DNA of 27,540 bases. It comes from a virus. Within the stretch, counting starts at the first letter, position 1. Each line of letters begins with the position of its first letter. A program made the translations under genes and the position numbers. This document shows positions 3,691 through 24,987 of the stretch, piece after piece. The notes below the pieces were generated by a model. That model did no database searches, was not told where the DNA came from, and saw nothing but the letters and a program-made list of their open reading frames with translations. Location: positions 1 through 27,540 of IMG/VR virus record IMGVR_UViG_3300046474_000040, one strand, 5' to 3'.

Positions 3691-5274
3691 ATGGCCGTAG
3701 CGAACGCTGCTCAAGCGCCAGTAAAATCGGCTGGCGACCCTAACACCGTTTATGAGACGCTTAAGCCTCTGTGGGAGAAGAGCCGTGCTGCTTGCAGTGG
3801 GGAGCGTTTCGTAAAGGACTTTGATGAGAACATCGACAACATTGGCTTCACAAACCTCCTGATCCCCTTCTCCCCATCCATGACTCAGGAGCAGTACAAC
3901 TTCTACAAGGCTGAGGCTGAGTGGCCTGGCATCACTGCGCAGTTCTCTAAGATGCTGGTTGGAGGCCTTCTCCGAAAGCCTCCTCGACTGACATTCAAGA
4001 AAGATGTCCCTGAAGAAGCCAAGAACTGGATCCTCAACGAGTTCGGTAAGGACGGCTGCTCGCTGGTGGCCTTCCTTGACGAAGGTCTCAGTGAAGAGAT
4101 TAAGACTAGCAGGCCGTGGGTCTTCGTGGACTACCCGAAGATCGACAATCCTGATGATCTTGATGAAGAAGAGCTCAAGAAGTACACGCCTTATCCGGTA
4201 CTCCAGCCTGGGGAATCTGTCGTTAACTGGCGGGTGACCACTGATGAGTATGGAAAGTGCCGTCTCGACCGTGTCATCGTTCGAGGACTGAAAGAGTCCT
4301 ACGTTGAGAACGAATTCCACCCCACGTTCATTGACGTCGCGTATGTCCATGAACTGGTCAATGGTAAGTACCAGGTAAGAGTCTTTGAGAAGACTACTCC
4401 TGAGAGCAATGTGCCGGTCAATACTGGCCAGGTACAGCAGGACGTTAAGAGCACCACGGACACGATCTTCGTCCTTAAGCAGACGAATAGCGTGCTAGTG
4501 AATGGTGACTCTCTTGACTTCATTCCCGCCTGGCCTCTGAATGGCTGCATCAGCCCTAGAGAGCCTATCCTACTGCCGATCATCGACAAAGAGGTGGCTC
4601 TCTACAATAAGGTGAGTCGTCGCAATCACCTTCTGTATGGTGCCTCCACATATACGCCCGTCATCTTCTCTGACATGACTGACGAGGAGTTCGACGAGGT
4701 CGTTGGCGGAGGCCTCGGCACTTGGCTGCATCTCAACAAGGACGATGCTGCCGAGGTCCTGGAGACTCCTACTGCTGCTCTGCAGGACATGGAGAAAGCT
4801 ATTGCTGCAGCCATTGAGGAGATGGCTAAGCTAGGCATCAGGATGCTCACCCCAGAGGTCGAGCAGTCTGGTGTGGCTCTGGAGATCCGCAATGCCGCCC
4901 AGACGGCACAGCTCAGTACACTTAACACGAAGGTTAGCGAGACCATGCGGCAGGTGATCGTCTTCATGATCAACTGGCGTTACGAGCTCAAGCTGACTAT
5001 CGATGATGTGGAGTTCTCCCTGTCTGATGACTTCAATCCTGCGCCTCTCGGTGCTGATTGGCTTCGTCTGGCGACTGAGTGGTACCAAGCAGGGCTTGTC
5101 CCGAGGGCTGTGTGGATCACACTTCTCAAGCTGAATGATCTTCTGCCGCCTGATTATGACGACGATGAGGGTAAGAAGGAGATCAGTGCTGACGAAATCA
5201 TCCAGAATGCCCTCAGGGGCTCTGATGACTATGCTACGCAGATAGCGAACGGAAGGACTAAGAAAAAGGAGTAG
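3691..5274 (+). CDS. Portal protein (DUF4055-like)
   Basis: The 527-residue product has the length and position of a siphovirus portal, the dodecameric ring at the head vertex through which DNA enters and leaves. The N-terminal part resembles DUF4055-type portals: YNFYKAEAEWPGITAQFSKMLVGGLLRKPPRLTF (about residues 69-102), then RPWVFVDYP and GESVVNWRVTTDEYG. A long helical stretch near residues 345-425 (AALQDMEKAIAAAIEEMAKLG, then EIRNAAQTAQLSTLNTKVSETMRQV) fits the portal stem and wing helices. The C-terminus is acidic then basic (DYDDDEGKKEISADE...GRTKKKE). The MuF gene begins six bases after the stop, the usual portal-MuF order. The terminase that often precedes a portal is not in the window. 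Confidence 0.85.
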   Translation: MAVANAAQAPVKSAGDPNTVYETLKPLWEKSRAACSGERFVKDFDENIDNIGFTNLLIPFSPSMTQEQYNFYKAEAEWPGITAQFSKMLVGGLLRKPPRLTFKKDVPEEAKNWILNEFGKDGCSLVAFLDEGLSEEIKTSRPWVFVDYPKIDNPDDLDEEELKKYTPYPVLQPGESVVNWRVTTDEYGKCRLDRVIVRGLKESYVENEFHPTFIDVAYVHELVNGKYQVRVFEKTTPESNVPVNTGQVQQDVKSTTDTIFVLKQTNSVLVNGDSLDFIPAWPLNGCISPREPILLPIIDKEVALYNKVSRRNHLLYGASTYTPVIFSDMTDEEFDEVVGGGLGTWLHLNKDDAAEVLETPTAALQDMEKAIAAAIEEMAKLGIRMLTPEVEQSGVALEIRNAAQTAQLSTLNTKVSETMRQVIVFMINWRYELKLTIDDVEFSLSDDFNPAPLGADWLRLATEWYQAGLVPRAVWITLLKLNDLLPPDYDDDEGKKEISADEIIQNALRGSDDYATQIANGRTKKKE

Positions 5275-5280
5275 TGACCT

Positions 5281-8200
5281 GTGTCCACCAACGCGAATAC
5301 TAAGATTTATGACAGTGTAGTTAACCGAGCGGCCATGATCCGCTTGTACGAAAGACGTGTCAACGGTAAAGTAGAGTTGGTGCTGAATGATCACAAAGTC
5401 CGTCTGGATGAACTGATCAAGGGAGCTAACCTTTCTCAGAGTGGTGTCAGCAAGCTTAGAAAAGACATCGAGGACGAGCTTCTCGGGACGTACTCAGAGG
5501 CCTTCAGGGTCACTAAGACGTCTCTAACGGATCTCGCCCTCGATCAGCTTTCTTATACTTATCAGACCATCGAAGCCTCTATGGGGCGAATCTGGGACGT
5601 CCAACGCCCTACTAGAAGAGTCGCTGAGGAGATCGTCCTTGAACGCCCTCTGTACAATGATCGCACCTTGGCCGCAGGCTGGGCCGGTGTCAGTCGTTAT
5701 GAGAGAGTGCGCCTGGAGAGTGTGATACGTAAAGGTATCGCAGCGGGCAGAACTGCCGATGAGATTGCTCTGGATGTTCGTAAGGGTAACGTCCACAACA
5801 TCTCGTATAACCAGTCTAAGTCATTGGTGGTTACGGCGATCACCAGTGTTCATGCTCAGTCAGACCATGCCGTCTATAAGGCCAACGAGAAGGCCCTCCG
5901 GGGCTGGCAGTACGTGGCGGTCCTGGACTCCCGGACCACGCCCCTCTGTGCCCACAGGGATGGCCAGATCTACCCCGTCGGCGACGTCGAGCACCTACCC
6001 CCAGCGCACTTCAACTGCCGGTCCACGACTATCCCTGTGTTCAGGTCGTGGGCGGACCTGGCGAAGCTGGAGGGCGTGGCTGAGGTTCGTAGGCAGAACA
6101 TTTCCAAGCTCACGGACAAGCAGAAGGCCTTCTATGATGGCCAGACGCCTCTTCGTGAGAGCTATAACGACTGGCTGATGCGTCAGTCCAAGGAAGTACA
6201 GCTACAGCACCTTGGTGACTACCAGAAGGTGGACCTCTTCAGGTCTGGACAGTTGACTGTCGACAAGTTCACGAACCCTGAGGGGAATTCCATCGGCATT
6301 CGTGAACTCAGGGCCATGACGGACTCTGGATACACCATTCCTGGAGACACCGTCAAGTTTGCCAACGCGAAGGCGAGGCTGGATGCCATGCAGCTGGGTG
6401 CCTCTTCGCCTGAGAGCTTCTATAACAATCCTACCTTGAAGAAGACACTTGTTGACTACTACCTGCTACAGGCGGGTGACCTGGATGGTACGTTGTCACT
6501 GACAAATTACCGCGGTCTAGTGTTGCCTTCTAAAGCTGCGGTCAAGAAGCGTGTGCTGACGTCACCTCCGAGGGACGACCAGCTGATCTTCAACCCGCAC
6601 ACTGGGCGGTACGAGGACGTACGTCTCTACCAGCCTAATCCTGGCGTACTCAACAATAACTTGAGGCTGGTCGATGCTAGCGAGAAACTTAAGCCTTCTG
6701 ATAAGGAATTCATCAAAGCTATTGATGATGCCCTTAATGGTCGTATGGGTGTCAACCAGCGTGCTGCTGTTGTCGATAACCTACGTATCGTCTTCTCTCG
6801 ATTCCGCGATTCAGGCGAGGCTTGGACAAACTTTAAGGCCGTAGTCCAGAGCCAGATGAAGTTTGACGTGATGAACGTCTCCGACTTCATCGAGACCCAA
6901 CTACGGAGAGACACTGATGTTCTGAAGAAGCTCCTCCAGGACAACTACGTGGACCCCGTCCTTGGGCCTGTACAGCTGGACGAGCTCAGCAGGGATTTCC
7001 TGAAGAACATTCAAGCCAAGAATAGGTGGGAGGATACTGTTGCTCCGAAGATTGCTAGAGAGCTTAAGCCGCTTCTTAATAGCGAGCTCCCGATTGTTAT
7101 TCGAGATCGCCTTTCTGATCGGGATTTGCATCAGTTTTATCTCAGATTTGCTCATCGTCTCGCTCTTAATGATGGCCCTGATAGAGATTCTGTCGCAGTT
7201 GCGCTCGGTCGAGACCTTTATAACCTCGCTAATCTGAACGGTAAACGTGCCGCCTGGTACGAGCTTGGTATGAAGCTATTGAGCAGCAAGCGGGTGAGCA
7301 AGCTCTTTGAGATCGAGACCTTCGGTGTTCAGAAGAAGCGAATGAAGAGTCGCCTGAGCAACAATTACTTTGGCCCTTACTATGATACCCTTTCCTATAA
7401 CATTCGTGTTGTTGACCCACGTATACAGCTGTATTCTAAGCTCACTCGTAAGGTCGATCTGGGACTCCGAGTTGCCGTCACACGTCCTGAAAACCGACTA
7501 GTGTTCAGGAAGGGCTTCAAAACCTACTTCATCGATCGCGGTGGTCTGGGACTTGAGGACACCAGAATTCCGATCACATCCACGAGCTCCTTCTCAGACT
7601 TCCCGGAAGAGTTTGTGGACGATGACCTGGTAAATGCCCTCACTTGGGCATCCCGATCCGAGTACCGCATCGACGAGGACTACTACGACTTCGTAAAGAA
7701 ACTCCTATACTTCCAGGACGACAAGGGTGGTGCAAAGAAGTACAACGACCTGAATGAGTATCGTAAGTACATCGCTGCTCGCGGTGACGCCTACGAGAGG
7801 TTCAAGGCAATGGAGTGGCTGAGGGAGTCTGGCGATTCCTTCTCGAACCACCCTTTCATCGACCACCGTGCACGCGTGTACGAGCGTGGTCTCATTGGGC
7901 CTCAGGCCGGTGAGACGTTCCGACCCTTCTTGAACACCAAGGAGGTTAAGAAGTTCAGTCCTGAGGAGTTCAAGGATCTTCAGGATCAGATCGGCTCCTT
8001 CCTGGGCGGTCTCAACGACTACTTTGAGGGGCGCTTCAACTCGCTGACTGTCACTGGTCGCCAGAAGATCGCAGAACGCTGGCGCTCCGAGTTGGTGCAG
8101 CTTGGCAACCACATGCTTCGTGGCAAGCCTGCCAACCTGAGGGCCATCCTTGACTCTGACTTCGCCCAACGTGTCGATGGTGAGGAGCTGGGTAAATTCT

Positions 8201-9909
8201 ACAGACTTGCCATTGAGATGGCTAAGATCGATAGGTACCTGAAGGGCGACTACTCCAGGAAGGCCCTAGAGGCCCTCAGGGATTATGACATCGCTCTAGC
8301 TCTTGAGCAAGACGCATCGTCGTCTGGTGCCCAGATCATTGCGCTGACCACCAAGAATAAGCAGCTTGCTGAGCTCAGTAACGTGATCCCAACCACCCAG
8401 AAGAAGCGTCTGTACGATGAGATCGCTGGAGCGACCTATAACGATCCTCGCTTCAGGGCTCTGAATGAGAAGCTAGGTCTGACTGAAAAGGATCTGCGTA
8501 AGGCTGCCAAGGCCCAGAACATGGTAACCTTCTATGGTGCAGGTGAGCGTACCGGCATTATGAATGTGGAGGGAAAGCTCTCAAAGATTCTTGGTAGGGA
8601 CTCTGCCACCTTGGTGGTGAAGGCCTCAGACAGAGATGTAGTGCTTAACGAGATTGATGCAAGGATCGCCCGTGTCGAGAGATACGACGCAGATACTGGC
8701 ATGCAGCTTCGTGAACTTCGTCAGAATGTCCGTGATGTGTTCAACAAGGGTATGGACCCCGGCGACGACATTATGGAGCAGCTGTACTTCCTTGACACCA
8801 AGACCAAGGATCTCGTCGAGAAGATGACCAGGAGCTACGATCGTGTGGTGACTCCTGATGACTTCAAGACGATAGCTAGCATCATGAGCGAGCATCTGGC
8901 CGACCAGGTGCCCATCCTTAAGGACTTTACCAAGTTCTTCGGTAGGCTTGCCGAGGCTTACCTAGCTAATGCGAAGCCCTCTCAGGCCGACTTCGACTGG
9001 AAGACGATTGCTAAGATCAAGCTTCTGGGTAGCCGCAAGAAGGGCTACGTGCTTCCAGACTCCGTCAGTGAGTTTCTCGGACTCAAGGCAGGAGAGCCCG
9101 TCTCTGAACAGGTACTTAAACGATTCAGCTTCTGGGACCCGAAAGGGACACTTAGGGACATCATCTATGGTGTGGACTCTCCGAACAGCAGACGGACAGG
9201 CGGCAAGTACTTTAAGATCGAGTTCTTTGACCTCCTGAAGCTCAATGAGATGGAGCTGTTCTACGCCAACAAGCTACCTAAGTCTTGGACTAACGTCCCT
9301 TGGGTAAACTTCGACGGCAAGACTATCGAGCAGAACTTTACTCAGAGCTTTGAAGAGCGCCTCAGCTATCGTGACAAAGACGGTAATTGGGTGAACAATA
9401 TCCTACAGGTGCCTCAGAAGACCGAGGCCTCGTGGTGGGAGCAGGTGATCAATAAGTCTGGCAAGATCAATGACATCGCTGATGCCACCAAAGCCCGGAC
9501 AGCCTTTGCTGTTAACGGTAACCACTCCAATGATGCCACACTCGTGAAACAGTTTCACCTGTGGGGACAGCGGAATGGCATTGCCACCTCGACTATCCAT
9601 GATGCGTTCTTCACGAATGCAGCTGACATGTTGAAGGCTAGACAGGCTCTGAAGGAGATCTATGCCAGAGCCCTAAAGAGTGAGGGTGTCAAGCGTACCC
9701 TAGACGAGATGCGTGCCAGAGGTCTGCCTAAAGAAGTCTACGATGCCTTCCTCCAAGAGGCTATCGACAAGGGACTTATACCTGTAGTGGGCAAGTCACG
9801 CATCGGTGGTAAGCTCTTGACTGAAGAGGACATCCTTACAACCGATGATATTCTTGAAGAAGTTCCTGACAACTTCGAGGATGATAAGAGTTGGTACGGT
9901 ATCGGTTAA
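5281..9909 (+). CDS. MuF head morphogenesis protein fused to T7/N4-like single-subunit RNA polymerase
   Basis: GTG 5281 is chosen for AAGGAG at 5266-5271, nine bases upstream. Residues 1-345 form a complete MuF/SPP1 gp7-like protein, with the signature LDSRTTPLCAHRDG (215-228), PPAHFNCRS (240-248) and the usual family ending (SYNDWLMRQ...LFRSGQLTVDKF...GIRELRAM). Such proteins are about 350 residues; this one has 1542. The extra ~1200 residues carry the single-subunit RNA polymerase motifs in order: DHRARVY (861-867; DxRGR motif), QDASSSGAQ (1010-1018; motif A, D1011 matching T7 D537), R1073-K1077-Y1085-G1086 with exact T7 spacing (motif B, T7 R627/K631/Y639/G640), NHSND (1414-1418) and IHDAF (1439-1443; motif C, D1441 matching T7 D812). 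Both metal-binding aspartates are present, so activity is predicted. By analogy with N4 it is probably packaged and delivered with the DNA; that step is inference. Confidence 0.85.
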   Translation: MSTNANTKIYDSVVNRAAMIRLYERRVNGKVELVLNDHKVRLDELIKGANLSQSGVSKLRKDIEDELLGTYSEAFRVTKTSLTDLALDQLSYTYQTIEASMGRIWDVQRPTRRVAEEIVLERPLYNDRTLAAGWAGVSRYERVRLESVIRKGIAAGRTADEIALDVRKGNVHNISYNQSKSLVVTAITSVHAQSDHAVYKANEKALRGWQYVAVLDSRTTPLCAHRDGQIYPVGDVEHLPPAHFNCRSTTIPVFRSWADLAKLEGVAEVRRQNISKLTDKQKAFYDGQTPLRESYNDWLMRQSKEVQLQHLGDYQKVDLFRSGQLTVDKFTNPEGNSIGIRELRAMTDSGYTIPGDTVKFANAKARLDAMQLGASSPESFYNNPTLKKTLVDYYLLQAGDLDGTLSLTNYRGLVLPSKAAVKKRVLTSPPRDDQLIFNPHTGRYEDVRLYQPNPGVLNNNLRLVDASEKLKPSDKEFIKAIDDALNGRMGVNQRAAVVDNLRIVFSRFRDSGEAWTNFKAVVQSQMKFDVMNVSDFIETQLRRDTDVLKKLLQDNYVDPVLGPVQLDELSRDFLKNIQAKNRWEDTVAPKIARELKPLLNSELPIVIRDRLSDRDLHQFYLRFAHRLALNDGPDRDSVAVALGRDLYNLANLNGKRAAWYELGMKLLSSKRVSKLFEIETFGVQKKRMKSRLSNNYFGPYYDTLSYNIRVVDPRIQLYSKLTRKVDLGLRVAVTRPENRLVFRKGFKTYFIDRGGLGLEDTRIPITSTSSFSDFPEEFVDDDLVNALTWASRSEYRIDEDYYDFVKKLLYFQDDKGGAKKYNDLNEYRKYIAARGDAYERFKAMEWLRESGDSFSNHPFIDHRARVYERGLIGPQAGETFRPFLNTKEVKKFSPEEFKDLQDQIGSFLGGLNDYFEGRFNSLTVTGRQKIAERWRSELVQLGNHMLRGKPANLRAILDSDFAQRVDGEELGKFYRLAIEMAKIDRYLKGDYSRKALEALRDYDIALALEQDASSSGAQIIALTTKNKQLAELSNVIPTTQKKRLYDEIAGATYNDPRFRALNEKLGLTEKDLRKAAKAQNMVTFYGAGERTGIMNVEGKLSKILGRDSATLVVKASDRDVVLNEIDARIARVERYDADTGMQLRELRQNVRDVFNKGMDPGDDIMEQLYFLDTKTKDLVEKMTRSYDRVVTPDDFKTIASIMSEHLADQVPILKDFTKFFGRLAEAYLANAKPSQADFDWKTIAKIKLLGSRKKGYVLPDSVSEFLGLKAGEPVSEQVLKRFSFWDPKGTLRDIIYGVDSPNSRRTGGKYFKIEFFDLLKLNEMELFYANKLPKSWTNVPWVNFDGKTIEQNFTQSFEERLSYRDKDGNWVNNILQVPQKTEASWWEQVINKSGKINDIADATKARTAFAVNGNHSNDATLVKQFHLWGQRNGIATSTIHDAFFTNAADMLKARQALKEIYARALKSEGVKRTLDEMRARGLPKEVYDAFLQEAIDKGLIPVVGKSRIGGKLLTEEDILTTDDILEEVPDNFEDDKSWYGIG
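7810..9906 (+). other. Single-subunit RNA polymerase catalytic core within the MuF fusion
   Basis: This marks the part of the fusion that contains all recognised polymerase motifs, about residues 844 to 1542. Motif order and internal spacing match the T7 family. In motif A the pattern D-x-S-x-S-G-x-Q is shared with T7 (D537-Q544). In motif B the R, K, M, Y and G positions fall at the same intervals. Motif C is I-H-D-[SA]-F. The A-to-B distance (66 residues) is shorter than in T7 (94), and the B-to-C distance (364) is much longer than in T7 (181), so there is an insertion in the fingers/palm region. The amino-terminal polymerase domain probably lies between residues ~346 and 840; a weak match to T7 (RDSVAVALGRDLYNLANL, 635-652) is suggestive only. 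Confidence 0.85.
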
Positions 9910-9982
9910 CACGAACCCGTTAAATTAACCCAGGCGCGCGTTCTGGTGATTGTATTGCGAGAGCGCCGCCTAACCTTATTTC

Positions 9983-10031: not shown

Positions 10032-10733
10032 ATGGCTACTGATAATGGTAAGAACGACGGGGAAGAGGGCAAGACTCCCGACCCCAAGGACAAGACGCAG
10101 AACACCGACGATGACAACGGAAAACAAGAGCCCACGCTTGAAGAGCGGCTTGAGGCTCTGGTGGAAGCTCGGCTGAAGCCTATTAAGGATAAGCTGGACG
10201 GTGCCTACTCACAACGTGACTCCGAGAAAGCCAGAGCTGACGCTCTTGAGAAGGAGAAGCGTGAGGCAGAACTCAAGCGTCTTGAGGACGAGGGTAAACA
10301 CAAGGAAGCTGCTGAACTCAAGGTTGCTGAAGCACAGCGCCAAGCCGACGAAGAGCGGAGGCGACGCGAAGCTGCCGAAGAAGAGAACACCAAGCTGACA
10401 CGTGACCTCGACGTCAAGAACGCCCTGAGTGGCCACAACTTCCGTAATGATAAGGCAGCTGGAACCGCCCATCGGGAAATTGTGGACGAACTGGTTAAGA
10501 ATAGCCAGGGCGTCTGGGTGCATAAGTCTGGTGCGAGCATTAAAGACTGTGTGGAGGCATTCGTCAAGGATGATGCCAACAGCTATCTCTTTAAAGCTAG
10601 AGCGTCCTCTGGTTCCGGTTCTGACACTGCAGTGCCTAGCAAAGACACCTCCAAGGGTGGCTCGCTCTTTGCGATGTCCCAAGCGGAAGTACTAGAAATG
10701 GCCGCGAAGGGGAAACTCCCCAAGCGCAAGTAA
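10032..10733 (+). CDS. Capsid scaffolding protein
   Basis: ATG 10032 follows AAGGA at six-base spacing. The 233-residue product lies directly before the major capsid gene and has scaffold composition. An acidic disordered start (GKNDGEEGKTPDPKDKTQN) is followed by a long charged coiled coil (about residues 35-135, many K/E/A heptads such as RLEDEGKHKEAAELKVAEAQRQADEERR). A compact segment around HREIVDELVKNSQGVWVHK follows, then a short basic C-terminal helix (MSQAEVLEMAAKGKLPKRK). Such basic C-terminal helices bind the coat protein in known scaffolds. Scaffolding proteins guide procapsid assembly and then leave or are degraded. No protease domain is visible here. Confidence 0.85.
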   Translation: MATDNGKNDGEEGKTPDPKDKTQNTDDDNGKQEPTLEERLEALVEARLKPIKDKLDGAYSQRDSEKARADALEKEKREAELKRLEDEGKHKEAAELKVAEAQRQADEERRRREAAEEENTKLTRDLDVKNALSGHNFRNDKAAGTAHREIVDELVKNSQGVWVHKSGASIKDCVEAFVKDDANSYLFKARASSGSGSDTAVPSKDTSKGGSLFAMSQAEVLEMAAKGKLPKRK

Positions 10734-10749: not shown

Positions 10750-11931
10750 ATGACTGCCAGAACTAACGTTCCGGGCGCTACTAACGAAGTGCTCCAGTCT
10801 GCGCTCTCCGCCTACTCGGATGAAGCGTATACTAACGCAAAGAAGCTGTCGGGCACGGGCATTGTTGGCTCGAACCCCGACATCGACCCTTCCACTGAAA
10901 CCTTTATCGGTCAGGTCCGTTGGCACAAGCCGATGAACCCGGTGATCAACGTCGCGTCTCTGACTGACTCGACTGCCGGTGCCAAGACCAACTACTCGTC
11001 CGACTACCTGCGTTACGTCAAATCGGTCCGTACCCACGGCGCTGAGAAGGTGAACATGCAGAAAGTCGTCACTCAGGTCGACGGTCTGGCTAAGCTGGGT
11101 CGTGACTTCGGCGAGACTCGTGCTCAGGACGAGCACAACGCCCTCCTGGCCATCCTGAAGGGCGTCGCGATCGCGGAAGCTCTGAACGGCGCTGCTACTG
11201 GTTCTGGCTCGACCGGTCTCGGTGGCCAGACCTTTGCCAACGACCCGAGCGACAAGAAGTACGGCTTCTATGTCGATCTGGGTGCCGCCAAGAACGTCGT
11301 CGATGCGACCGCCACTGTCCAAGGTGCGGCCCGTGCCGAAGGCTTCCTGCGCGCCTTCGGTATGGCTTACAAGGACTACGAGCCCGAATATGCCTACCTC
11401 GTCACCTCGCCGGAGACGATGGCTTCGCTGCGTTCGGCCAACCTCGTTGACCAGACCAAAGTCACTGACGGTGCGATCGAATTCTCGACCATCTTCGAAG
11501 GTAAGTTCCGCCTGATCTCGTCGCGTGCTGTGACCTCGCTCACTGGCGCTGAACTGACCATGCTGAACACTGGTGCTGGTGTTGACATCGTCGGCACGAA
11601 GACCTCGTTCATCGTTCTGCCGGGCGCTATCGCCTTCCATCCGCTGGATGTGCCGGACGAGACTGAGATCACCCGTGACGGCAACGCCTATAAGGGCGGC
11701 GGCCTGACCTCGGTCTGGCACCGTTGGGGTTACGTCATGGCCCCGGCTGGCTACGACTGGATCGGCTCGGAGGACGACTTTGCCTCCGACACGACCTACC
11801 AGAGCATTGTCGAAAGCTCGACTGTCAAAGCCCTGACTGCGGTCACGACAATCGCCAATGCCAAGGGTACCTGGAACCGCAAGGCCAGCTCGGCCCTGAG
11901 CCTGGGCATCCTGCCGATCTTCCACTCGTAA
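10750..11931 (+). CDS. Major capsid protein (HK97-fold expected)
   Basis: ATG 10750 follows AAGGA (10739-10743) at six-base spacing. The 393-residue length, position after the scaffold gene and before a connector gene, and strong codon bias identify the major coat protein. Serine is mostly TCG and arginine almost only CGT/CGC, unlike the neighbours. Internal features fit an HK97-type coat: an N-terminal helical arm (NEVLQSALSAYSDEAYTNAKK), a long loop region (VRWHKPMNPVINVASLTDSTAG), a spine helix (QDEHNALLAILKGVAIAEAL, about 132-151), and a C-terminal beta region with GLTSVWHRWGYVMAPAGYDWIGSEDDFASD (about 318-347). There is no obvious N-terminal delta domain, consistent with a separate scaffold. 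The fold is inferred, not shown by a direct motif. Confidence 0.88.
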   Translation: MTARTNVPGATNEVLQSALSAYSDEAYTNAKKLSGTGIVGSNPDIDPSTETFIGQVRWHKPMNPVINVASLTDSTAGAKTNYSSDYLRYVKSVRTHGAEKVNMQKVVTQVDGLAKLGRDFGETRAQDEHNALLAILKGVAIAEALNGAATGSGSTGLGGQTFANDPSDKKYGFYVDLGAAKNVVDATATVQGAARAEGFLRAFGMAYKDYEPEYAYLVTSPETMASLRSANLVDQTKVTDGAIEFSTIFEGKFRLISSRAVTSLTGAELTMLNTGAGVDIVGTKTSFIVLPGAIAFHPLDVPDETEITRDGNAYKGGGLTSVWHRWGYVMAPAGYDWIGSEDDFASDTTYQSIVESSTVKALTAVTTIANAKGTWNRKASSALSLGILPIFHS

Positions 11932-15123: not shown

Positions 15124-18100
15124 ATGTCAGGCGTTATTATTGACGTTGAAACTAACTCGGAAGCTGCCAAACGTGACCTTCAGAGTCTCAACCAGAGACT
15201 GAAGGATATGTTCCTGGGTGCGAATCGCACTAAGGGCGCGCTGGGCTCTATCGATGGTAGCAACTTCAAGTCTATCAATAAGAATATCAAGGACACCACG
15301 GACTCCTTCAGGAACTTCCAGGTGTCTGGTGGATCGGCCATGTCGTCGATCTCTAAGAACACTCATAGCGTTGTCAAGGACATCGGACTTCTGAAGTCGG
15401 CCGTAGGAGCCACCGGCGTGGCCCTTGCTGCGTTCGGGTCGATCAAGACCTTCAACAGGATGGCTGATGATCTGACCAACGTTCAGAACCGTCTGCGTCT
15501 CGTGACCAACGATACGGACGCTCTGCTCCGCAAGCAGCGCCAGCTGTTCCTGATGTCACAGCAGACCAGGACCTCCTTCGGAGCTACTGCCAATATCTTT
15601 GTGGACTTCGTCAAGGGCCTCAAGCAATCGGGCATCGAGGAAGAGCGCGTCGTCAAGGTCGTGAAGACCATCCAGCAAGCTGGCGCACTGTCGGGCAGCT
15701 CAATGGAGACCCTGAATGCCTCTCTGGTGCAGCTGTCTCAGGGCATCGGTGCTGGGGTGCTTCGTGGTGAAGAGCTCAACTCCGTCCTGGAGGGTATGAA
15801 GTACTACGGCCAAGGACTGGCCGAGGCGCTAGGTATGACCACTGGTCAGCTGCGCCAATTCGCGATGGACGGTGGTCTGACTACGAAGACGCTCATCCAA
15901 GCCACCGAGAAGATGGCTAAGAAGACCGCCACTGACTTCCAGAAGACCACTGTCACAATGGGAGCCGCTACTGCAAACTTCCACGCGTCCGTCTCCTACT
16001 TCGTAGCTGATATCAACCAGTTCCTTGGTGTGTCCGACTTCTTCGCGAAGGGACTTAACAAGCGCGCTAATTTGCTGGCTGGAGCGAGTGACAACATCAT
16101 CACGCAGCTTACTCTCATTCGACGGGCTGCAAAGAACTACATCGATGAGATCGTTAGAGGCAACACCTTCGTAGCCACTCTGAAGGGCGTCATCAAGCTC
16201 AACATCAATCCTCTGGATGCGGTGTCGAAGTACCAGCAGCAAAAGAAAGTTAAGGAATACCTCAGAAAGGTCCATGACTTCTTCGCTAAGGAGACTGATG
16301 TTGATGTAAACGTAAAGCCCACGGGCCTGGAGAAATTGTTCAGTCGGTTCAAGATTCCCAAGGCTGACAACGAAGATGCGTCCCGCCGACTGACTGATGT
16401 GAAGACCATGCGCCAGCGTGTGGAAGAGGTGATCAATCTCTCTACTGCGATGTATGACACACTGTCGGTCACCGCTCGTAACACCCTGCACCTGTTCCCG
16501 CAGATCCAGCTTCCGATGACCCGTTATGCGGATTCCCTGAAGCGTTTTGTGTCATTTGCAGGTGTCAATATCGACTCTTGGGTGGCTAACACCATCCGAC
16601 CTGCCTCTCGTGCTGTGGAGGGGCTTCAGGAGACCCTGTCAATCTTCTCATCGGGCGATAAGCGCCTTGAGAGGGCATGGGTGTCTCTGTTCAAGTCGTC
16701 TAACATTGTCGAGTTCACCGAGAACCTCTTCAAGCTCAATAGAGCTAGAGAGTCACTCAAGCTCGATGACAAGGCCTTCTTGGGCCATGCATTTCTTGAG
16801 CGACTGGGACAAGCCTCTAAGGGTATCGACAACGTCCTGATCAAGCTTGGTTTCATGAAGAATCGCTTCAGGATCAAGGTGCCTGTGGAGGACATCAAGA
16901 AGCAGGTTGAGGCGACCGGCTCTGTGATCCAGAGAGTCTGGGAGGATGTGTTCGCGCCTAAACTCGACCCGATTCTCCGTAAGACCGCCATTCAGATCAA
17001 GACCTTTGGTGCCACTCTTAGCAACACACTTGCAGCATCTTTCACCCTGTCGAATGGCAGAGACCTCGGAGAGTCTTTCGGTAGGCTCATCGGTCTTGGT
17101 GTTCGGAAGGTCGTCAGTGGGTTTAAGTTCCTTGAGGGTGCTTCGTTCGGTGATCTACTGAACACGAGTGCGATCAAGAAGTTCGTGTCCGCTGTTGAAG
17201 GACCTCTGGAGCACCTCAAGAACTTCTTCAAAGGCTTCTTCAAGGGCATCCTGGGTGGCTTCGGTGCAGAGGCTAATAAAGGGAACTTTCTAACCAAGAC
17301 GTTCGATCAGATCAGTGAAGAGGCCGACTCTAAGCTGAAGCACGTTGAGCGTCGTATTCGTGACTTCGGAAAGTCTGTCAAGGGTGTCTTCTATGACATC
17401 TGGGACGCAGTGGTGGGTCACTCTTTCTGGCCTGACACCATCGACGGCGTGGTCAGCTACACCCACAGAATCTTTGAATCGAATAAGACTCTAAAGAAGT
17501 TCAAGGATAATGTCCTTGACATGTTCAAGAGCGTCTATGAGAGGATGAAGTCCAGCGAGTTCTTCGGCGACTTCGCCCGAAAGCTCGGCAAGATCGACTG
17601 GTCTGCTGCTCTGAAGACACTCACGGGCTCCGTCGGTAGTGCGTTAGTCGCTGGCATGTTGCTGTTCTTCGGCAACCTTCAGATGAAGCTCACGGCGCTC
17701 AGCTACTTCATCTCTCTGTTCAACGTGGCGATCGGCGGTGCCGTCAGCACCATCACCCCACACATCGCGACCCTCATGGGCACTGTGGGCGGACAGTTTG
17801 CCGAGCGTCTGCTTGAGGGTGCGGTAAGAAGCCTTGACGCACTGATTGGCGCTATACCCTCCTTTGTCCACTCGTTCCTGAATGCATTACTGCCCGCGCA
17901 GGGCATTGTGGATGCCATCTTTGCTCTATCACCTGTCGCCAGCAACCATCTACTGTGGGCCATCGGTGCCATCGCTCTTCTCTCCACCAAGGTCAAGGCC
18001 CTGAAGCCTATCAATGAGATGATCTTTGGTAAGAAGAAACTGGGTAAGGACGGCATCAAGGTTATCTCTGAAGGCATACTTCCAGTATTCCAGCAGATGA

Positions 18101-21100
18101 CCTTTGGCTGGATCGGTGAACTTCTGGGTAAGGGCGCTGTCGATGGGCTGGAGAAAGCCAGTAAGGACCTCCCCAAGGTGCTCTTCAAGGATAGCAAGCT
18201 CGCTCTGGCGGGTGCTGCGGCTCTTAGTGCTGCGATGTTGGACAGCGTCTCGATCTTCGAGGCCTCCTTCGTTGGTGTCCCTCTTCTGGCCACGGCTATC
18301 CTAGGCCCCAAGGGCGGTGTCAGATTTGTGAAGGATGTCCAGTCCACACTGATCTCGACCGTGAAGGGTGTCTTTAGCATCATCAGCACGATTGTTGCCA
18401 AGGAAGCATCCAAGAACAACCTGCTTGCTGGTACATTTCTGGATATCTCTGTCATCGTCGCCAGTCTCACTGGTAAGATGACTAAAGGTGCCAGCCCGAT
18501 CAAGAAAGCCTTCGGTGCACTCTTTAGGGACTTGTTCTCGATCCCTAGAAATCTGTCCAGGAATTCAGACGCCTACGCTGAAGGTAGCATGTCGCTGCTT
18601 GATGCGATGTTCACTCTGGACGATGGTAAGAAGGTTGCCCTCCGTAAGAGCTTTAAGGGTGCAGTCAACAGCGTCCTGACTGGTGATCTAGGTCGTGGAA
18701 ACTCGTTTAAGGATTACTTTAAGACTATCTCGACCAACTTCGCCGTTGGTGTGGCTGGCCTCAGGGCGCACTTCTCCTCTTTGAAGGGTGTCGGCACCAA
18801 ACTGACCCAGGGTCTGTCCGTAGCTTTTGAGGTGATGTCAAACAGGATCGGACGTGCCCTTCGGTTGCTTGGTGATGGCCTCAGTGTCTTTGCCGGTATC
18901 TTGAAGAACAAGTTTGCTCTTGTCAGTCTCTTCTTCCTTCTTATGGCTACGGTGGCCCATGCTGCCACATCGACCAGCGGTGCTATCGGGGACATGTCTC
19001 ATAGCCTCCTCGGGTTGGCTGGTGCTGTTGGCACTGTGGTCGCAGCCCTCGGAACTCTCGGGGTATCTGTGCGTACACTGAGGGCTTTCCAGTCTGGTAA
19101 GGATTCCTTCAAGGCTGATGCTATCCGAAAGAGCATGGATGCTTTTGAGTCTGATCGCCGTGCTCGGAAAGCGAGGGAGCTCGCTGAGTTCGCTGCCGCC
19201 ATTCCCAGAGGCTCTGTGCACCGGCAACGTGACATTAATCGTCATGACAAGCGTCTAGAAGGTGGTGTCCAACGCGATCTCGATATCAAGCTTGCCACAC
19301 TCAATAAGACTGGTGCAGCAGGGTCCACTCTGGCAGGTATCCAATCTGCTAGTGCGTATCTTGGGACGTTCTACAAGGGTGTCAGTGACCTTACGTCACA
19401 GTCTGCTCTAAACCCTGCTTGGTGGACCAGGCTCGTCAGCCCCATCAAAAATGTGGGTGGTGCTTTCAGAGGTGTCTCTGCTGCTGCGAAGGTGAACTCA
19501 TTCGCCAGCACAGTAGCAAGCGCGTCTGAGCTCGGAAAAGTTCTGGGCGGTCTGGCTGATGGTAAGGGTTTCAGGCTCGGAAAGCTTACCGATGTCTTCA
19601 AGGGTATTGGTAGCGTCGGGGGAGCAGCGTTCAAGGATGTCGGTAAAGCCATCAGTACTATGACTGTTGGTCTGGCCTCCTCTGGCGGCGTCATCAGGGC
19701 ATTCGGCGCGGTGATTACTGCCGTAATGACTGCCATTACTGACGGCATCTGGGCGGCGGTCACAGCCCTCACCACATTGATCGCTGAGGCTCTTGCACCC
19801 TTCCTGCCCATCATCGCCACCATTGGTGCGATTGTTGGCGTGGTCGGTGTGTTGGGTCTCTGGCTGTTCGGACCTGGTAACTCGTTCCTGGACAATCTGG
19901 AATGGGCCTGGGATAAGATCCGCTCGATCTTCGGGATGGAGGCTAAGTCTGATACAGGCCGCCGCTCCGCCATCGAAAAGATGTTGGGTGATCAGCAGAT
20001 TGGCAACACCAAAATCAGCTTCAAGGATGCCATCGCGTCCACAGACTTCGAGGGCATGAGTGAAGAGACCTTTGGTGTCGTCACTGAGCAAGCCAAGGAG
20101 ACTGCAGAGGCCTTTGCCAATCTTCGTAAGGAGATCATCAAGCAGGGCTACGGTCCCACAGACAGCCAGCGTAACGAGGCCAAGCGACTTGAGGAGGAGC
20201 AGAAGCGTCTTCTGGCACGACAAGCGCCGAAGAAGCCGGAGGACTTCAACAAGCAAACCGAAGAGATGCTGAAAAGCTTCTCCAAGGTGGACAACAGTCA
20301 CTGGGCCGTCCTGAAGAGGTTCAGTGGTTGGCATCCGTCCATGACTCGTCAGGACATTGAGAGCGACCCATTCTTTGCTATCAATACGACCGCCAAGAGA
20401 GCGGGCCAGGGTATCGAGCTGTTCGTAAAGACCCTAGCTAGCTCTCCTCGTATTCTGTTTAATGCTGTGGTCGGTAGCATCCCTATCCTTGTCAAGATTA
20501 TTGGCGATAAACTGAATGATGCTTTCAGCAAGCTCAAGGCTTACATCCTGTCTATCGATTGGGTGAGAGAGCGTGTCGTGCCCGCATTGAAGACCGTCGG
20601 TGATGGCATCAATGATATCGGGGACAAGATTGGGGAGAAATTCCTAAGCCTGTTTGACAGGTTCAGTCCTGAGGAGCAGAAGTACCAGCGTGGCTTCAAG
20701 AGCTCTCGTGATAGAGTATCAACGCTGGAGAACCTTCTTCCTGAGGAGAAGCAGAGGTTTGATGCTGCCAGCATTCGTGCCAGGAATGCTGATGTGGCTC
20801 TTAACGAGCTTAATAGACGCGGTGCCAGGGGCTATATCAAGACCGCCGATGGTCGCACCCAACTGGAGTCCGCTGATCAGTTCGACAAGCGTCGGGATGC
20901 TGCTAAGGCCAACAAGGCTCTCGACGAGCTTAATAGACGCGGTGCCAGGGGCTATATCAAGACCGCCGATGGTCGCACCCAACTGGAGTCCGCTGATCAG
21001 TTCGAGAAGCGTCGGGATGCCATCCAAAAGGAGGCTGCTAAGGCCAACAAGGCTCTCGACGAGCTTAATAGACGCGGTGCCAGGGGTGGTCGCACCCAAC

Positions 21101-24100
21101 TGGAGTCCGCTGATCAGTTCGAGAAGCGTCGGGATGCCATCCAAAAGGAGGCTGCTGAGGCCAACAAGGCTCTCGACGAGATGAGCCGTAAGCTGGCCGT
21201 CCTGGATGCCCGTCGGAAGAAGGCTCAGGTATTCCAGACAGCATTTAACTTGGGTGCTAAGAACATCAAGGACACCCTCGGGATCGACTTCGGCACTGAC
21301 AGCAAAGACTTCGTGGGTACTCAGCGGGACTGGGATATTCTCCAGAAGTCTCGAGAGAAGGTCTTTGAGCTCGACAAGGACATCGCCAACACCAACGACA
21401 GGATTCTGAAGGCTACAGACGGTATCACCTCTATCAATGAGAGACGTCTGAAGACCGCCCAGAGACTGTCCGAGATTGCTTTCGATGAGTCTAAGGCTGA
21501 ACAGAACAAGCAACTACAGCTGCTCGGAACTGCCTCAGACTACCTTGGTAACCTCGGAAAGACGAGTGCTAGTAGTGTTCAGGCGCAGCTGGCTGTCGAT
21601 CCTGGGACGTTCGCGCAGTTCACTGAGGCTGCTAAAGCCTACGATGATCTGAACAACCGTCTCAAGACTTTCGACTATATCCAGCCTGATGCTTCTAAGA
21701 AGTTTAATCAGCTGACAGAGGACTTGGCCAAGGCCGGTAAGGGTCTCACGGACCTGTCTCCGAAGACGGTTACTCTTGAGGACATCAATAATAGACTTCA
21801 GCAGTTCAATATTCCTCAGTTCTCCACCAGCCAGTACCTGTACATCAGTCCTCAACACATCGTTGATCTGAATAGCAAGTTCAACGCCATCACGAATGCG
21901 CAGATTGACCTTGATAAAGTGATCAAACAGGGTTGGGATGGTAGCAAGGCGAGCCTTGATCGCTACAAGAACGCGCTTGCTAATGTCGATGTCACCACCA
22001 GAGCCTTGAAGTCTGCCACAGCCACAACGCTGGCTCAGTCTATCAAGGACGCGATTGACCAGAAAGGTGCTGGTAGCATCGAGGCTGCTAGGGCGGCCGG
22101 GCTGGAAGATAACAACTATGTCTTCGGCAATAAGAAGCGTCGCGAACTCGTCACCAAGCTGACTTCCAAGAAGGCTGATGCTGATGCGGTCAAGTACGAT
22201 CCTAATGCGACAGAAGAGCAGATCACCAAGGCGGCGGCAACGTCTGCCAAATTGGAGACGCAGATCGGAGAGCTCTCATCCTCTAAGGCTGAGAACAAGA
22301 TGGCTGCGACCTTCAACGATCTACTTCAGTCACTGAACAACGTGGGTGTGGCTGTCGATGCTCTTAGCTTCAGCAAGCTAAGGAAGTCTGCCCGTGACTC
22401 GCTCACCAGCATTGGTTATGATCTTGCTAAAATTGACAAGAGGCTTGAGAAAGCCAAGCCCGGTGCTGATCTGGCCTCCATGTTCGAGGAGCGAGCCAAG
22501 CTCTACGCCAAGGCTAGAGACCTGCTTCTTGAGACCCTCCATAACACTGGTAAGGGGATCATGGAAGGCCTGTCACGTCTGGGCCTGAGTGAGGCTTCTG
22601 TCATCGGTCGAATGAAGGCTGAACAGATTAGCAACCTGCTTGAAATCGATCGACGGGTAGAGGGCTTTAAGCTTCAACTGGCGGATACGACTGACCTTGA
22701 GGAGATTGTTAAGCTCAACCAGGCCATCGCGAAGGCTGAGGCCGCTCGTGACAAGGCTATAGTTGATACCAACAGCTCCTTCGAGAGAAGGCTTGAGTCT
22801 ATCAATGACGTGTTCAAAACATCTTTGGACCAGGTGGACTACTCGTTCTTCGGTGATGAACTTACCAAGCGTCTGTTCAACATCTCGGCCATCACTAAGA
22901 AGGCCCTGATCGACTTCTATCAGACCGGGCAATCGGTACTAGGTAATACCGCACAGACCTTCTTTGAGACCCTGCGTCGTCTTGGTCAGAAGGGAGAGAT
23001 CATCTCGATCTTCCAGACCTGGAGCGATGGCATGGCCAAGGCCCTCGAAAGAGGTGCTGAGTCTGGCTTCTCGAAGTTCAAGGAGGTGTTCAGTGGTGCG
23101 ACCTTCGATGACTACCTCGGTCTGGGTAAGGCAAGACGAACGGCCATCACACAAGAGCTCGCCAGTAAGGACGCGATCAAAAGCATCCTAGACTCTCCTG
23201 GTGCTTCCGATGACATGGTTAAGACAATCAACACTATGTACGGTGCGCAGGGTAAAACGGCCACGGAGACTATCCAGGCTCTCCAGAATCTGCCTGGTTT
23301 TGACGATCAGTTCAAGAAGCTGTTGCCTCCTACGGAGCAGCTGACCGGCTCTTTGGGCAAAGCCACTGGCGCGATTAATGAGCTGACCAAGGCGATCAGA
23401 GGTGAGCCCTCAACGGCAACCGTCCCGGTCAAGCCGACACCAGGCACCACTGAAGTGAAAGGGGTCGTCGTAACAGGCACACGCCAAAAGTCGACGCCAA
23501 TTACACTACAGCCTAGGACGGTCGATCCTACTGACGAAGCCTACCGCAGGGCACACGACACTAGTGACATTGAGCGTAGTATTCTCTCTGACATCACTAA
23601 TGCGAATGGCCTGAGGGCTGGGATTCGAAATGCTACGTCCATGAATGGCATGCGCATCGATCAGTCCACGCTCAATTTGGCCAGTGATGTGCAGCTTAAG
23701 AAGCTTGCTTCTCTCTCCGAAGCTCATACCACAATGCAGGATGATCTCAATCGTCAGCTGCGGGGTGAGTCGTCTCTCACGGGCCTTGATATCACTCAAC
23801 TCCAGAAATCCATCACGATTGTTGATGAGAGCTTCCAACAGCTCGCTACCAGCATTGAGCAAGATGCTTATCGTGTCAGTAACGCCGGTAAGGAGCTTTC
23901 CGCGTCATTCAGGGATACATTCTCTAGCGGACTGAAGGATCTTCTGAAGGGTAAGAGCAGCCTCAAGGATTTCGGAAAGAGTCTTCTGGACAACATCACC
24001 AGCTCGATTGTGGACAAGTCTGTAGATGGCTTCACGTCGAACTTCACCAAGGACGGTGGATTCCTTGATAAGGGTCTTCAGTCGTTGGGTCAGATGGTGT

Positions 24101-24987
24101 TCGGTGGCGGTGGTGGTAAGACTGGCGATGGCACTGGCGATCTGCTCAGCAGCCTTGGCGGTCTGTTCGGTGTTGGCAGCACAGGCAACACTAATGTGAT
24201 GTCTGGCGACCAGCCCTCGTTCAATCCGTTCGGGGATATCCTTGGCAAGTCCTTTAATCTGGGTAGCCTCTTCGGCGGTAGCTCAGATTCCAAGCTAACC
24301 ACCGACCTGACGAAACCCTTGAATAGCGTCTCTGGAGTATTTACGGACGCTTCAAGTGTTATTGACACGACCTTCCCCGAACTTACCAACACTATCGGTA
24401 AGGCGATGCCTGATCTGACCAAGACTCTCACTGATTGTTTTGGGGCAGGTGCGTCGGGTAGTGGTGGCGGGATCATGAGCAGTCTGGGCAGCTTCTTTGG
24501 AGGTGGCGGAGGTGGCCTGTCGAGCCTCTTCAGCTCTGGAGGCTCGGGTCCTTGGGGCTTCCTTGGGACGCTCTTCGGGACGGCGATCGCTGGCGGCTTT
24601 GCTGGCGGCGGTGAAATCCGTGGACCTGGTACTGGTAAGTCAGACTCGATGCTCGCCGCTGTCTCCAACGGGGAGTTCGTCACCAATGAAGTGGCGACCA
24701 GGAAGAATCTTCCGCTCCTGAAGGCTATCAACAGCGGCAAATTCAAGCTGGGCAAGATGCCTCACTTCGCGAAGGGCGGTCTAGTATCTCAGAGTCTGAT
24801 CGCACCCATGCCCGTGTCCTCTCTGGAGGCTGCTAAGGCTCCTCCGAGGAAAGACCGAGGTGACACCCATGTCCATCTTCAGGTGATCGGTGACGTCAGT
24901 CGCCAGACCAAGTCGACTATCATTCAGATGCTTCCGAACATCGCGGAGGGTGTCAACTCTCACAACCGTGAGAAAGGCTATAAATAA
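15124..24987 (+). CDS. Tail tape measure protein, very long
   Basis: ATG 15124 follows AAAGGA at six-base spacing. The 3287-residue product is the largest in the window. Residues ~105-300 carry the N-terminal tape-measure domain (VQNRLRLVTND, LSQGIGAGVLRGEELNSVLEG, LGMTTGQLRQFAMDGGLTTKTLI). Hydrophobic segments occur near 838-880, 1026-1061, 1264-1280 and 1542-1583, as in tape measures that insert in the host membrane during DNA entry. Residues ~1600-2750 are mainly coiled coil and include a three-copy repeat. The C-terminus has a lambda gpH-like part (FRDTFSSGLKDLLKGKSSLKDFGKSLLD), a glycine-rich region and FAGGGEIRGPGTGKSDSMLA, near-canonical for the family. No lysozyme or peptidase motif was seen. 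The protein sets tail length and is ejected ahead of the DNA. Confidence 0.93.
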   Translation: MSGVIIDVETNSEAAKRDLQSLNQRLKDMFLGANRTKGALGSIDGSNFKSINKNIKDTTDSFRNFQVSGGSAMSSISKNTHSVVKDIGLLKSAVGATGVALAAFGSIKTFNRMADDLTNVQNRLRLVTNDTDALLRKQRQLFLMSQQTRTSFGATANIFVDFVKGLKQSGIEEERVVKVVKTIQQAGALSGSSMETLNASLVQLSQGIGAGVLRGEELNSVLEGMKYYGQGLAEALGMTTGQLRQFAMDGGLTTKTLIQATEKMAKKTATDFQKTTVTMGAATANFHASVSYFVADINQFLGVSDFFAKGLNKRANLLAGASDNIITQLTLIRRAAKNYIDEIVRGNTFVATLKGVIKLNINPLDAVSKYQQQKKVKEYLRKVHDFFAKETDVDVNVKPTGLEKLFSRFKIPKADNEDASRRLTDVKTMRQRVEEVINLSTAMYDTLSVTARNTLHLFPQIQLPMTRYADSLKRFVSFAGVNIDSWVANTIRPASRAVEGLQETLSIFSSGDKRLERAWVSLFKSSNIVEFTENLFKLNRARESLKLDDKAFLGHAFLERLGQASKGIDNVLIKLGFMKNRFRIKVPVEDIKKQVEATGSVIQRVWEDVFAPKLDPILRKTAIQIKTFGATLSNTLAASFTLSNGRDLGESFGRLIGLGVRKVVSGFKFLEGASFGDLLNTSAIKKFVSAVEGPLEHLKNFFKGFFKGILGGFGAEANKGNFLTKTFDQISEEADSKLKHVERRIRDFGKSVKGVFYDIWDAVVGHSFWPDTIDGVVSYTHRIFESNKTLKKFKDNVLDMFKSVYERMKSSEFFGDFARKLGKIDWSAALKTLTGSVGSALVAGMLLFFGNLQMKLTALSYFISLFNVAIGGAVSTITPHIATLMGTVGGQFAERLLEGAVRSLDALIGAIPSFVHSFLNALLPAQGIVDAIFALSPVASNHLLWAIGAIALLSTKVKALKPINEMIFGKKKLGKDGIKVISEGILPVFQQMTFGWIGELLGKGAVDGLEKASKDLPKVLFKDSKLALAGAAALSAAMLDSVSIFEASFVGVPLLATAILGPKGGVRFVKDVQSTLISTVKGVFSIISTIVAKEASKNNLLAGTFLDISVIVASLTGKMTKGASPIKKAFGALFRDLFSIPRNLSRNSDAYAEGSMSLLDAMFTLDDGKKVALRKSFKGAVNSVLTGDLGRGNSFKDYFKTISTNFAVGVAGLRAHFSSLKGVGTKLTQGLSVAFEVMSNRIGRALRLLGDGLSVFAGILKNKFALVSLFFLLMATVAHAATSTSGAIGDMSHSLLGLAGAVGTVVAALGTLGVSVRTLRAFQSGKDSFKADAIRKSMDAFESDRRARKARELAEFAAAIPRGSVHRQRDINRHDKRLEGGVQRDLDIKLATLNKTGAAGSTLAGIQSASAYLGTFYKGVSDLTSQSALNPAWWTRLVSPIKNVGGAFRGVSAAAKVNSFASTVASASELGKVLGGLADGKGFRLGKLTDVFKGIGSVGGAAFKDVGKAISTMTVGLASSGGVIRAFGAVITAVMTAITDGIWAAVTALTTLIAEALAPFLPIIATIGAIVGVVGVLGLWLFGPGNSFLDNLEWAWDKIRSIFGMEAKSDTGRRSAIEKMLGDQQIGNTKISFKDAIASTDFEGMSEETFGVVTEQAKETAEAFANLRKEIIKQGYGPTDSQRNEAKRLEEEQKRLLARQAPKKPEDFNKQTEEMLKSFSKVDNSHWAVLKRFSGWHPSMTRQDIESDPFFAINTTAKRAGQGIELFVKTLASSPRILFNAVVGSIPILVKIIGDKLNDAFSKLKAYILSIDWVRERVVPALKTVGDGINDIGDKIGEKFLSLFDRFSPEEQKYQRGFKSSRDRVSTLENLLPEEKQRFDAASIRARNADVALNELNRRGARGYIKTADGRTQLESADQFDKRRDAAKANKALDELNRRGARGYIKTADGRTQLESADQFEKRRDAIQKEAAKANKALDELNRRGARGGRTQLESADQFEKRRDAIQKEAAEANKALDEMSRKLAVLDARRKKAQVFQTAFNLGAKNIKDTLGIDFGTDSKDFVGTQRDWDILQKSREKVFELDKDIANTNDRILKATDGITSINERRLKTAQRLSEIAFDESKAEQNKQLQLLGTASDYLGNLGKTSASSVQAQLAVDPGTFAQFTEAAKAYDDLNNRLKTFDYIQPDASKKFNQLTEDLAKAGKGLTDLSPKTVTLEDINNRLQQFNIPQFSTSQYLYISPQHIVDLNSKFNAITNAQIDLDKVIKQGWDGSKASLDRYKNALANVDVTTRALKSATATTLAQSIKDAIDQKGAGSIEAARAAGLEDNNYVFGNKKRRELVTKLTSKKADADAVKYDPNATEEQITKAAATSAKLETQIGELSSSKAENKMAATFNDLLQSLNNVGVAVDALSFSKLRKSARDSLTSIGYDLAKIDKRLEKAKPGADLASMFEERAKLYAKARDLLLETLHNTGKGIMEGLSRLGLSEASVIGRMKAEQISNLLEIDRRVEGFKLQLADTTDLEEIVKLNQAIAKAEAARDKAIVDTNSSFERRLESINDVFKTSLDQVDYSFFGDELTKRLFNISAITKKALIDFYQTGQSVLGNTAQTFFETLRRLGQKGEIISIFQTWSDGMAKALERGAESGFSKFKEVFSGATFDDYLGLGKARRTAITQELASKDAIKSILDSPGASDDMVKTINTMYGAQGKTATETIQALQNLPGFDDQFKKLLPPTEQLTGSLGKATGAINELTKAIRGEPSTATVPVKPTPGTTEVKGVVVTGTRQKSTPITLQPRTVDPTDEAYRRAHDTSDIERSILSDITNANGLRAGIRNATSMNGMRIDQSTLNLASDVQLKKLASLSEAHTTMQDDLNRQLRGESSLTGLDITQLQKSITIVDESFQQLATSIEQDAYRVSNAGKELSASFRDTFSSGLKDLLKGKSSLKDFGKSLLDNITSSIVDKSVDGFTSNFTKDGGFLDKGLQSLGQMVFGGGGGKTGDGTGDLLSSLGGLFGVGSTGNTNVMSGDQPSFNPFGDILGKSFNLGSLFGGSSDSKLTTDLTKPLNSVSGVFTDASSVIDTTFPELTNTIGKAMPDLTKTLTDCFGAGASGSGGGIMSSLGSFFGGGGGGLSSLFSSGGSGPWGFLGTLFGTAIAGGFAGGGEIRGPGTGKSDSMLAAVSNGEFVTNEVATRKNLPLLKAINSGKFKLGKMPHFAKGGLVSQSLIAPMPVSSLEAAKAPPRKDRGDTHVHLQVIGDVSRQTKSTIIQMLPNIAEGVNSHNREKGYK
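20806..21180 (+). repeat. Three near-identical tandem repeats within the tape measure gene
   Basis: Copies start at 20806, 20926 and 21061, so the periods are 120 and 135 bp, with a third copy of about 117 bp. Each encodes ELNRRGARG, then GRTQLESADQF, then a KRRDA linker. Copies 2 and 3 have the added IQKEA codons (15 bp) and copy 3 lacks YIKTAD (18 bp); all differences are in frame. The DNA is almost identical, so the duplication is recent. A more diverged unit (NADVALNEL) precedes copy 1. Confidence 0.95.

Follow-up and report, generated by a model that had tools for sequence, protein, structure and literature searches.

A MuF head protein fused to a T7-superfamily RNA polymerase in uncultured siphoviruses: a candidate portal-anchored virion RNA polymerase

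Until now, single-protein RNA polymerases (RNAPs) packed in the virion have been known only from the short-tailed N4 group. In N4 (Schitoviridae), a podovirus, the virion-carried gp50 is a single-subunit RNAP of the T7 fold, and a second phage RNAP is made in the cell. The N4 enzyme is 3500 aa long, with N- and C-terminal ejection and metallopeptidase regions of its own, and its promoters are hairpins upstream of the start, in which inverted repeats flank a GC-rich heptamer at -11 (PMC4496689). Iyer et al. 2017 describe N4-like virion RNAPs (vRNAPs) as restricted to N4-like phages (PMC5512222), and a 2025 preprint on N4 calls the large vRNAP unique to Schitoviridae (PMC12633501). Among siphoviruses, Thermus phage P23-45 carries gp96, a virion RNAP fused to the tape measure protein that transcribes the early genes, including that of a second RNAP (PMC10770324). 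In addition, minor head proteins of the MuF/SPP1 gp7 family, encoded beside the portal, can bear enzymatic cargo at their C-termini, with no RNAP among the fusions covered in the available part of the source (PMC5512222).

The stretch of DNA analyzed here (the window) comprises positions 1 to 27,540 of IMG/VR virus record IMGVR_UViG_3300046474_000040, and encodes, on the plus strand at 5281..9909, a MuF minor head protein fused to a single-subunit RNAP. The open reading frame runs from a GTG start at 5281 to a stop ending at 9909 without interruption (1542 aa), and full-length copies occur in dozens of contigs. A chimera or assembly error was ruled out as the source of the fusion, because it turns up in numerous independent contigs as well as in the genomes of cultured phages. 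The MuF/SPP1 gp7-like domain (residues 1-345; 5281..6315, plus strand) was matched by Pfam PF04233 at residues 146-251 (E 4.5e-13), by TIGR01641 (SPP1 gp7; E 9.4e-19) and by PHROG 241, head morphogenesis, over residues 4-346 (E 4.7e-65). The initial annotation had read this gene as a complete MuF protein, ending near residue 345, in one frame with a single-subunit RNAP, and this reading held: the frame is exact, the conserved MuF signature is present, and both families were matched on the same ORF. A fold search with the MuF half returned no relative of solved structure. Residues 329-358 (6265..6354, plus strand) had a pLDDT below 50 in a model of residues 1-600 and likely form a flexible linker that joins the two domains. 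The protein resembles the MuF effector fusions in its N-terminal domain, its place beside the portal and its enzymatic C-terminal cargo, and differs from them in that the cargo is a complete RNAP.

The polymerase domain occupies residues 346-1542 (6316..9906, plus strand), its start lying at about 346-358. A profile search and a structure prediction had been proposed as checks on this half, and both placed it in the T7 superfamily. Specifically, PF00940 (RNA_pol) matched with E 4.3e-12, its score of 46 bits exceeding the cut-off of 22, and matches to two RNA polymerase families of PHROG were also obtained (PHROG 414, E 2e-16). An AlphaFold model of residues 346-1542, built from 30 related sequences, had a mean pLDDT of 76 and a pTM of 0.68, and showed the right-hand fold of T7 and mitochondrial RNAPs. 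The best Foldseek matches listed for this model among solved structures were all T7 or mitochondrial RNAPs (E 3.5e-17 to 1e-14, probability 1.0, TM-score ~0.5 by target length). Residues 671-808 (7291-7704) also gave a phmmer match to the archaeal winged-helix protein PH1932 (E 3.9e-5; 4.3e-4 by profile), which found no backing in the fold search. The likeness to T7 gp1 and mitochondrial RNAPs extends to the fold, motifs A, B and C and DxRxR, whereas identity is only ~12% and the fusion, a late structural gene, has large extra insertions and an N-terminal head domain.

The catalytic signatures of single-subunit RNAPs were all present, in the order and at the residues initially annotated, and were unchanged in 39 of 39 uninterrupted homologues, except for R1073 (35/39) and H862/A864. 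In a profile alignment with T7 RNAP, the DHRAR motif (residues 861-865; 7861..7875, plus strand) corresponds to T7 D421-R425, with D861, R863 and R865 aligned to D421, R423 and R425 and invariant. The catalytic aspartate of motif A, D1011 (8311..8313, plus strand), aligns with T7 D537 and is likewise invariant, with S1013, S1015 and Q1018 falling on 539, 541 and 544. Polymerase motif B (8497..8538, plus strand) lies outside the profile alignment and was matched by spacing: R1073, K1077, Y1085 and G1086 show the same R-4-K-8-Y-G arrangement as T7 R627, K631, Y639 and G640, as the initial annotation had claimed, with K, Y and G invariant. NHSND (residues 1414-1418; 9520..9534, plus strand) covers the T7 HSxD region 784-787 (H1415, S1416 and D1418 aligned to 784, 785 and 787), and H1440 and D1441 (9598..9603, plus strand) form motif C, equivalent to T7 H811 and D812; both were invariant in all 39. 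Judged by these retained residues, the polymerase is apparently active, as first suggested. Further, amino acid change was no faster in the polymerase core than in MuF; synonymous sites were saturated.

In several relatives, the polymerase half is interrupted by group I introns (Rfam RF00028), which fall at residue 697, within motif B (~1075-1085), ahead of NHSND (1413) and behind the catalytic HD (1441). Across the eight intron-bearing relatives, several different sites are used and cluster at active-site motifs, and the second RNAP gene described below is likewise split in several relatives. Group I introns favor conserved codons, and their presence in active-site codons is in line with a working active site. 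In EBPR siphovirus 1 (L001, 20046-25419; gp47-gp49), the fusion is annotated as two genes flanking an HNH gene; the insert lies at codon 1082/1083 and is probably an intron, because introns occupy that same codon in relatives L047 and L048. In nine other relatives, extra domains of 100-225 aa are inserted in frame, at residue ~988-998 or ~1109; those at ~988-998 are of two unrelated kinds, phrog_5043 and phrog_30942, both PHROG families of unknown function. These inserts were considered as inteins and rejected, with the frame open, no intein ends and two matching such PHROGs; they are possibly injected cargo.

The initial annotation had further called the polymerase T7/N4-type, and the N4 half of that label fell away. 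A profile of 24 fusion polymerases compared with nine N4-like vRNAP cores gave E 0.35 and a probability of 0.2%, against E about 1e-10 to 1e-11 (1.2e-11) with T7-type RNAPs, while T7-type RNAPs compared with N4 gave E 7e-5. In a tree used for clade separateness only, its deep branches being long, the fusion polymerases, including that of roseophage DSS3_VP1, formed one clade (support 100), N4 vRNAPs another (100), and T7-type RNAPs with the second RNAPs a third (94). We therefore rejected membership of the N4 vRNAP family, and the missing profile match together with the separate clades suggests that single-subunit virion RNAPs probably arose at least twice. The layouts differ as well: whereas N4 gp50 has ~3500 aa, the fusion has 1542 aa, with MuF at the N-terminus and polymerase to the end. 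P23-45 offers a parallel of another kind, a siphovirus with an RNAP fused to a structural protein, a second RNAP and a conserved early motif, but gp96 is a two-barrel RNAP akin to cellular enzymes and sits on the tape measure, whereas here a T7 fold sits on MuF. The fusion has a T7 fold and no core of two double-psi barrels. A search for the two-barrel RdRP family PF05183 found no match anywhere but, run without a positive control, is uninformative. The tape measure protein is a separate gene of 3287 aa (15124..24987, plus strand; TMP_3 E 2.8e-42, with PHROG tape measure families), in which no RNAP domain was found. Residues 574-642 of this protein gave a weak, sub-threshold methyltransferase-like match.

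Profile matches to the neighbors bore out the setting first proposed, a siphovirus head cluster with the fusion between portal and scaffold. The portal protein lies at 3691..5274 (phrog_145 E 4.3e-58; DUF4055 E 1e-10), a probable scaffolding protein at 10032..10733 (phrog_206 E 6.6e-5) and the major head protein at 10750..11931 (phrog_247 E 3.2e-17), all on the plus strand. By these matches, the order of portal, fusion, scaffold, major head protein, head-tail adaptor, major tail protein, tape measure, distal tail protein and fiber J is that of a siphovirus. A single scan of IMG/VR yielded 97 relatives, of which 80 were retained, with MuF and RNAP in one gene in nearly all of them, contig permitting. 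Judging from these sequences, about 100 contigs, the fusion typifies a large assemblage of uncultured, long-tailed phages. The named phages matched over the whole protein were EBPR siphovirus 1 (60% identity) and the roseophages DSS3_VP1 and DSS3_PM1 (31%), whose counterparts are annotated only as minor head protein-like or head protein. The same fusion occupies the same gene place in cultured DSS3_VP1 (DSS3VP1_00028) and in EBPR siphovirus 1 (gp47/gp49), the latter split by the HNH-bearing insert; in DSS3_VP1, a tRNA-Asn gene lies between portal and fusion (L002, 19813-19888). Bacterial and archaeal genomes, searched at one per species, gave no sign of an integrated form, since they matched only in a 74-kb contig and a small piece of one metagenome-assembled genome (MAG). 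The related Pelagibacter phage Kolga has both a MuF protein and a T7-like RNAP without the fusion; its 633-aa MuF protein (gp59; L123, 19995-21896) has a C-terminal half of no assigned identity where the polymerase would be.

The wide distribution and the occurrence in DSS3_VP1 are evidence from outside the window, as are the second RNAP and the pair of promoter-like motifs considered next. A second, free, canonical T7-like RNAP of ~730-790 aa, or its split pieces, was found in DSS3_VP1 and in 13 of the 14 IMG/VR relatives searched (PF00940 E down to 1e-82); none was found in G014 or EBPR siphovirus 1, both shorter or partial records. Word counts in intergenic DNA yielded two motifs, A (CCCGTTRAHTTAACCC) and B (YGCGgaAAAnnnrGTATCTTATATGAWA), which lie almost exclusively on the coding strand and for which reversed-pattern controls gave zero sites in these phage records. 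In the window, motif A (CCCGTTAAATTAACCC; 9916..9931, plus strand; 0 mismatches, 0.02 sites expected) is a candidate promoter of the second RNAP and begins 7 nt past the fusion stop, and in five of eight genomes it lies 6-9 nt past that stop. It is followed directly by an inverted repeat, AGGCGCGC...GCGCCGCCT (9932..9971, plus strand), a possible 5' RNA hairpin, and hairpins follow many other motif A sites. Relative to the second RNAP gene, motif A occurs near -3 to -6 kb, +3 to +4 kb and +17 kb, as well as before terminase, and it precedes most other operons (replication, terminase, capsid and tail genes).

Motif B is more narrowly placed: at least one copy precedes the second RNAP gene by 1.0-3.2 kb, on the gene strand, in all eight genomes, and four of these have another near +18 kb. 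It contains a T7-like TATAT|G, and RNA beginning at that G folds into a hairpin whose sequence varies between sites (z ~-1.9 at offset 9 and -1.5 at offset 11), a signal lost when the start is shifted 2 nt further. The hairpin suggests that transcription starts 1 nt past an AT-rich stretch, an arrangement shared with T7 promoters but not with sigma-70 promoters. Upstream of the presumed start, motif B lacks the inverted repeat of N4 type, a comparison that presupposes its pairing with the fused enzyme, itself drawn from position. In DSS3_VP1, although its fusion is only 31% identical, a homologous motif B pair (GTGAGAAAACTAAGGCATCTATAATGA) precedes the second RNAP gene by 6-7 kb, and a broad motif resembling A (TTACGTTAAAGAGGGGG) is present as well. 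The window, which stops short of the early region, contains no motif B, and no clear copy was found in EBPR siphovirus 1 (a partial record) or relative G012. An IMG/VR scan with motif B alone picked out 69 stretches; the fusion was present in 21 of the 25 longer contigs tested (16/16 of those of 56 kb or more) and the second RNAP in 23 of the 25. Within the 3-Mb MAG, all three perfect sites fell on a single contig, C53, presumably the 74-kb contig that bears the fusion, and Kolga, lacking the fusion, had no perfect or one-mismatch site.

We propose, with a probability of about 0.72, that the fusion is a portal-anchored virion RNAP that is ejected with the DNA and transcribes early genes, including that of the second RNAP. 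The MuF part, from what is known of its family, would dock the polymerase at the portal vertex inside the head, so that the fusion itself plausibly explains packaging. The polymerase part would exit with the DNA and start transcription in the cell without waiting for the host enzyme, most likely from early promoters of the motif B type, which lie ahead of the second RNAP gene. The free RNAP would then read the wider motif A set before replication, terminase, capsid and tail genes. Late in the infection, new fusion protein would be synthesized and packaged. We infer packaging, ejection and early transcription by analogy with N4 (PMC4496689) and P23-45 (PMC10770324), whereas the positions of the motifs make it rather probable that B belongs to the fused enzyme and A to the second RNAP. 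Against this reading, passing a polymerase of ~1200 residues through a siphovirus tail is demanding, although the tape-measure-fused RNAP of P23-45 takes that route; EBPR siphovirus 1 and G012 lack a clear motif B, and the deep tree is long-branched.

Several other readings were weighed against this one. The pairing could be reversed, with the virion enzyme reading motif A and the free RNAP motif B, given that both motifs resemble single-subunit RNAP promoters with 5' hairpins and stand in tandem at several sites; we consider this unlikely, as A precedes late capsid and terminase operons while B marks only the second RNAP and one further region, and an injected enzyme needs few early sites. 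In a variant of the injected enzyme that we regard as similarly doubtful, the polymerase would stay tethered via MuF at the portal or tail exit while transcribing, so that early transcription would pull the genome into the cell. It is less probable again that host RNAP starts early transcription at motif B, leaving the fused polymerase a later or auxiliary role. Some copies do show TATGAT ~16 nt after TTGCGG, and DSS3_VP1 has TATAAT there, but the hexamer's final base, critical for sigma-70, varies among T, A and G, while the spacer GTATCTTA is nearly invariant. The hairpin, moreover, puts the start 1 nt past the AT-rich stretch and not 6-8 nt, and the confinement of perfect sites in the MAG to one presumed phage contig also argues against the host enzyme.

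The location of the gene in the late head cluster would suit a polymerase produced late and acting in the cell that made it, in late transcription or packaging, fused to MuF but never ejected. This we find very improbable: a free RNAP is already encoded, SPP1 gp7-type MuF proteins belong to the structure of the head, and MuF fusions are regarded as vehicles for effectors (PMC5512222). That the domain is a catalytically dead structural remnant could be argued from its weak PF00940 match beside that of the second RNAP (~1e-8 versus 1e-65), but hardly squares with both aspartates, K, Y, G, DxRxR and HSND being invariant down to 31% identity, with a catalytic part that changes no faster than MuF, or with the introns in active-site codons.

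Full-text literature searches found no description of the MuF-RNAP architecture; a mention is possible in the paper describing Naomviridae, reportedly that of Rihtman et al. 2021. The fusion would represent a second solution to the single-subunit virion RNAP, with a sequence kinship to the N4 enzyme that is unrecognizable beyond the shared T7 superfamily. Its carriers are siphoviruses common in environmental viromes, and its delivery device would be a simple one, fusion to a portal-associated head protein. The proposal predicts early transcription independent of host RNAP in the cultured phage DSS3_VP1, supplies two phage-specific candidate promoters, and opens the ejection of protein through a siphovirus tail to experiment. 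If the polymerase does remain tethered while transcribing, it would constitute a third, independently evolved virion RNAP system, one that couples DNA entry to transcription in siphoviruses.
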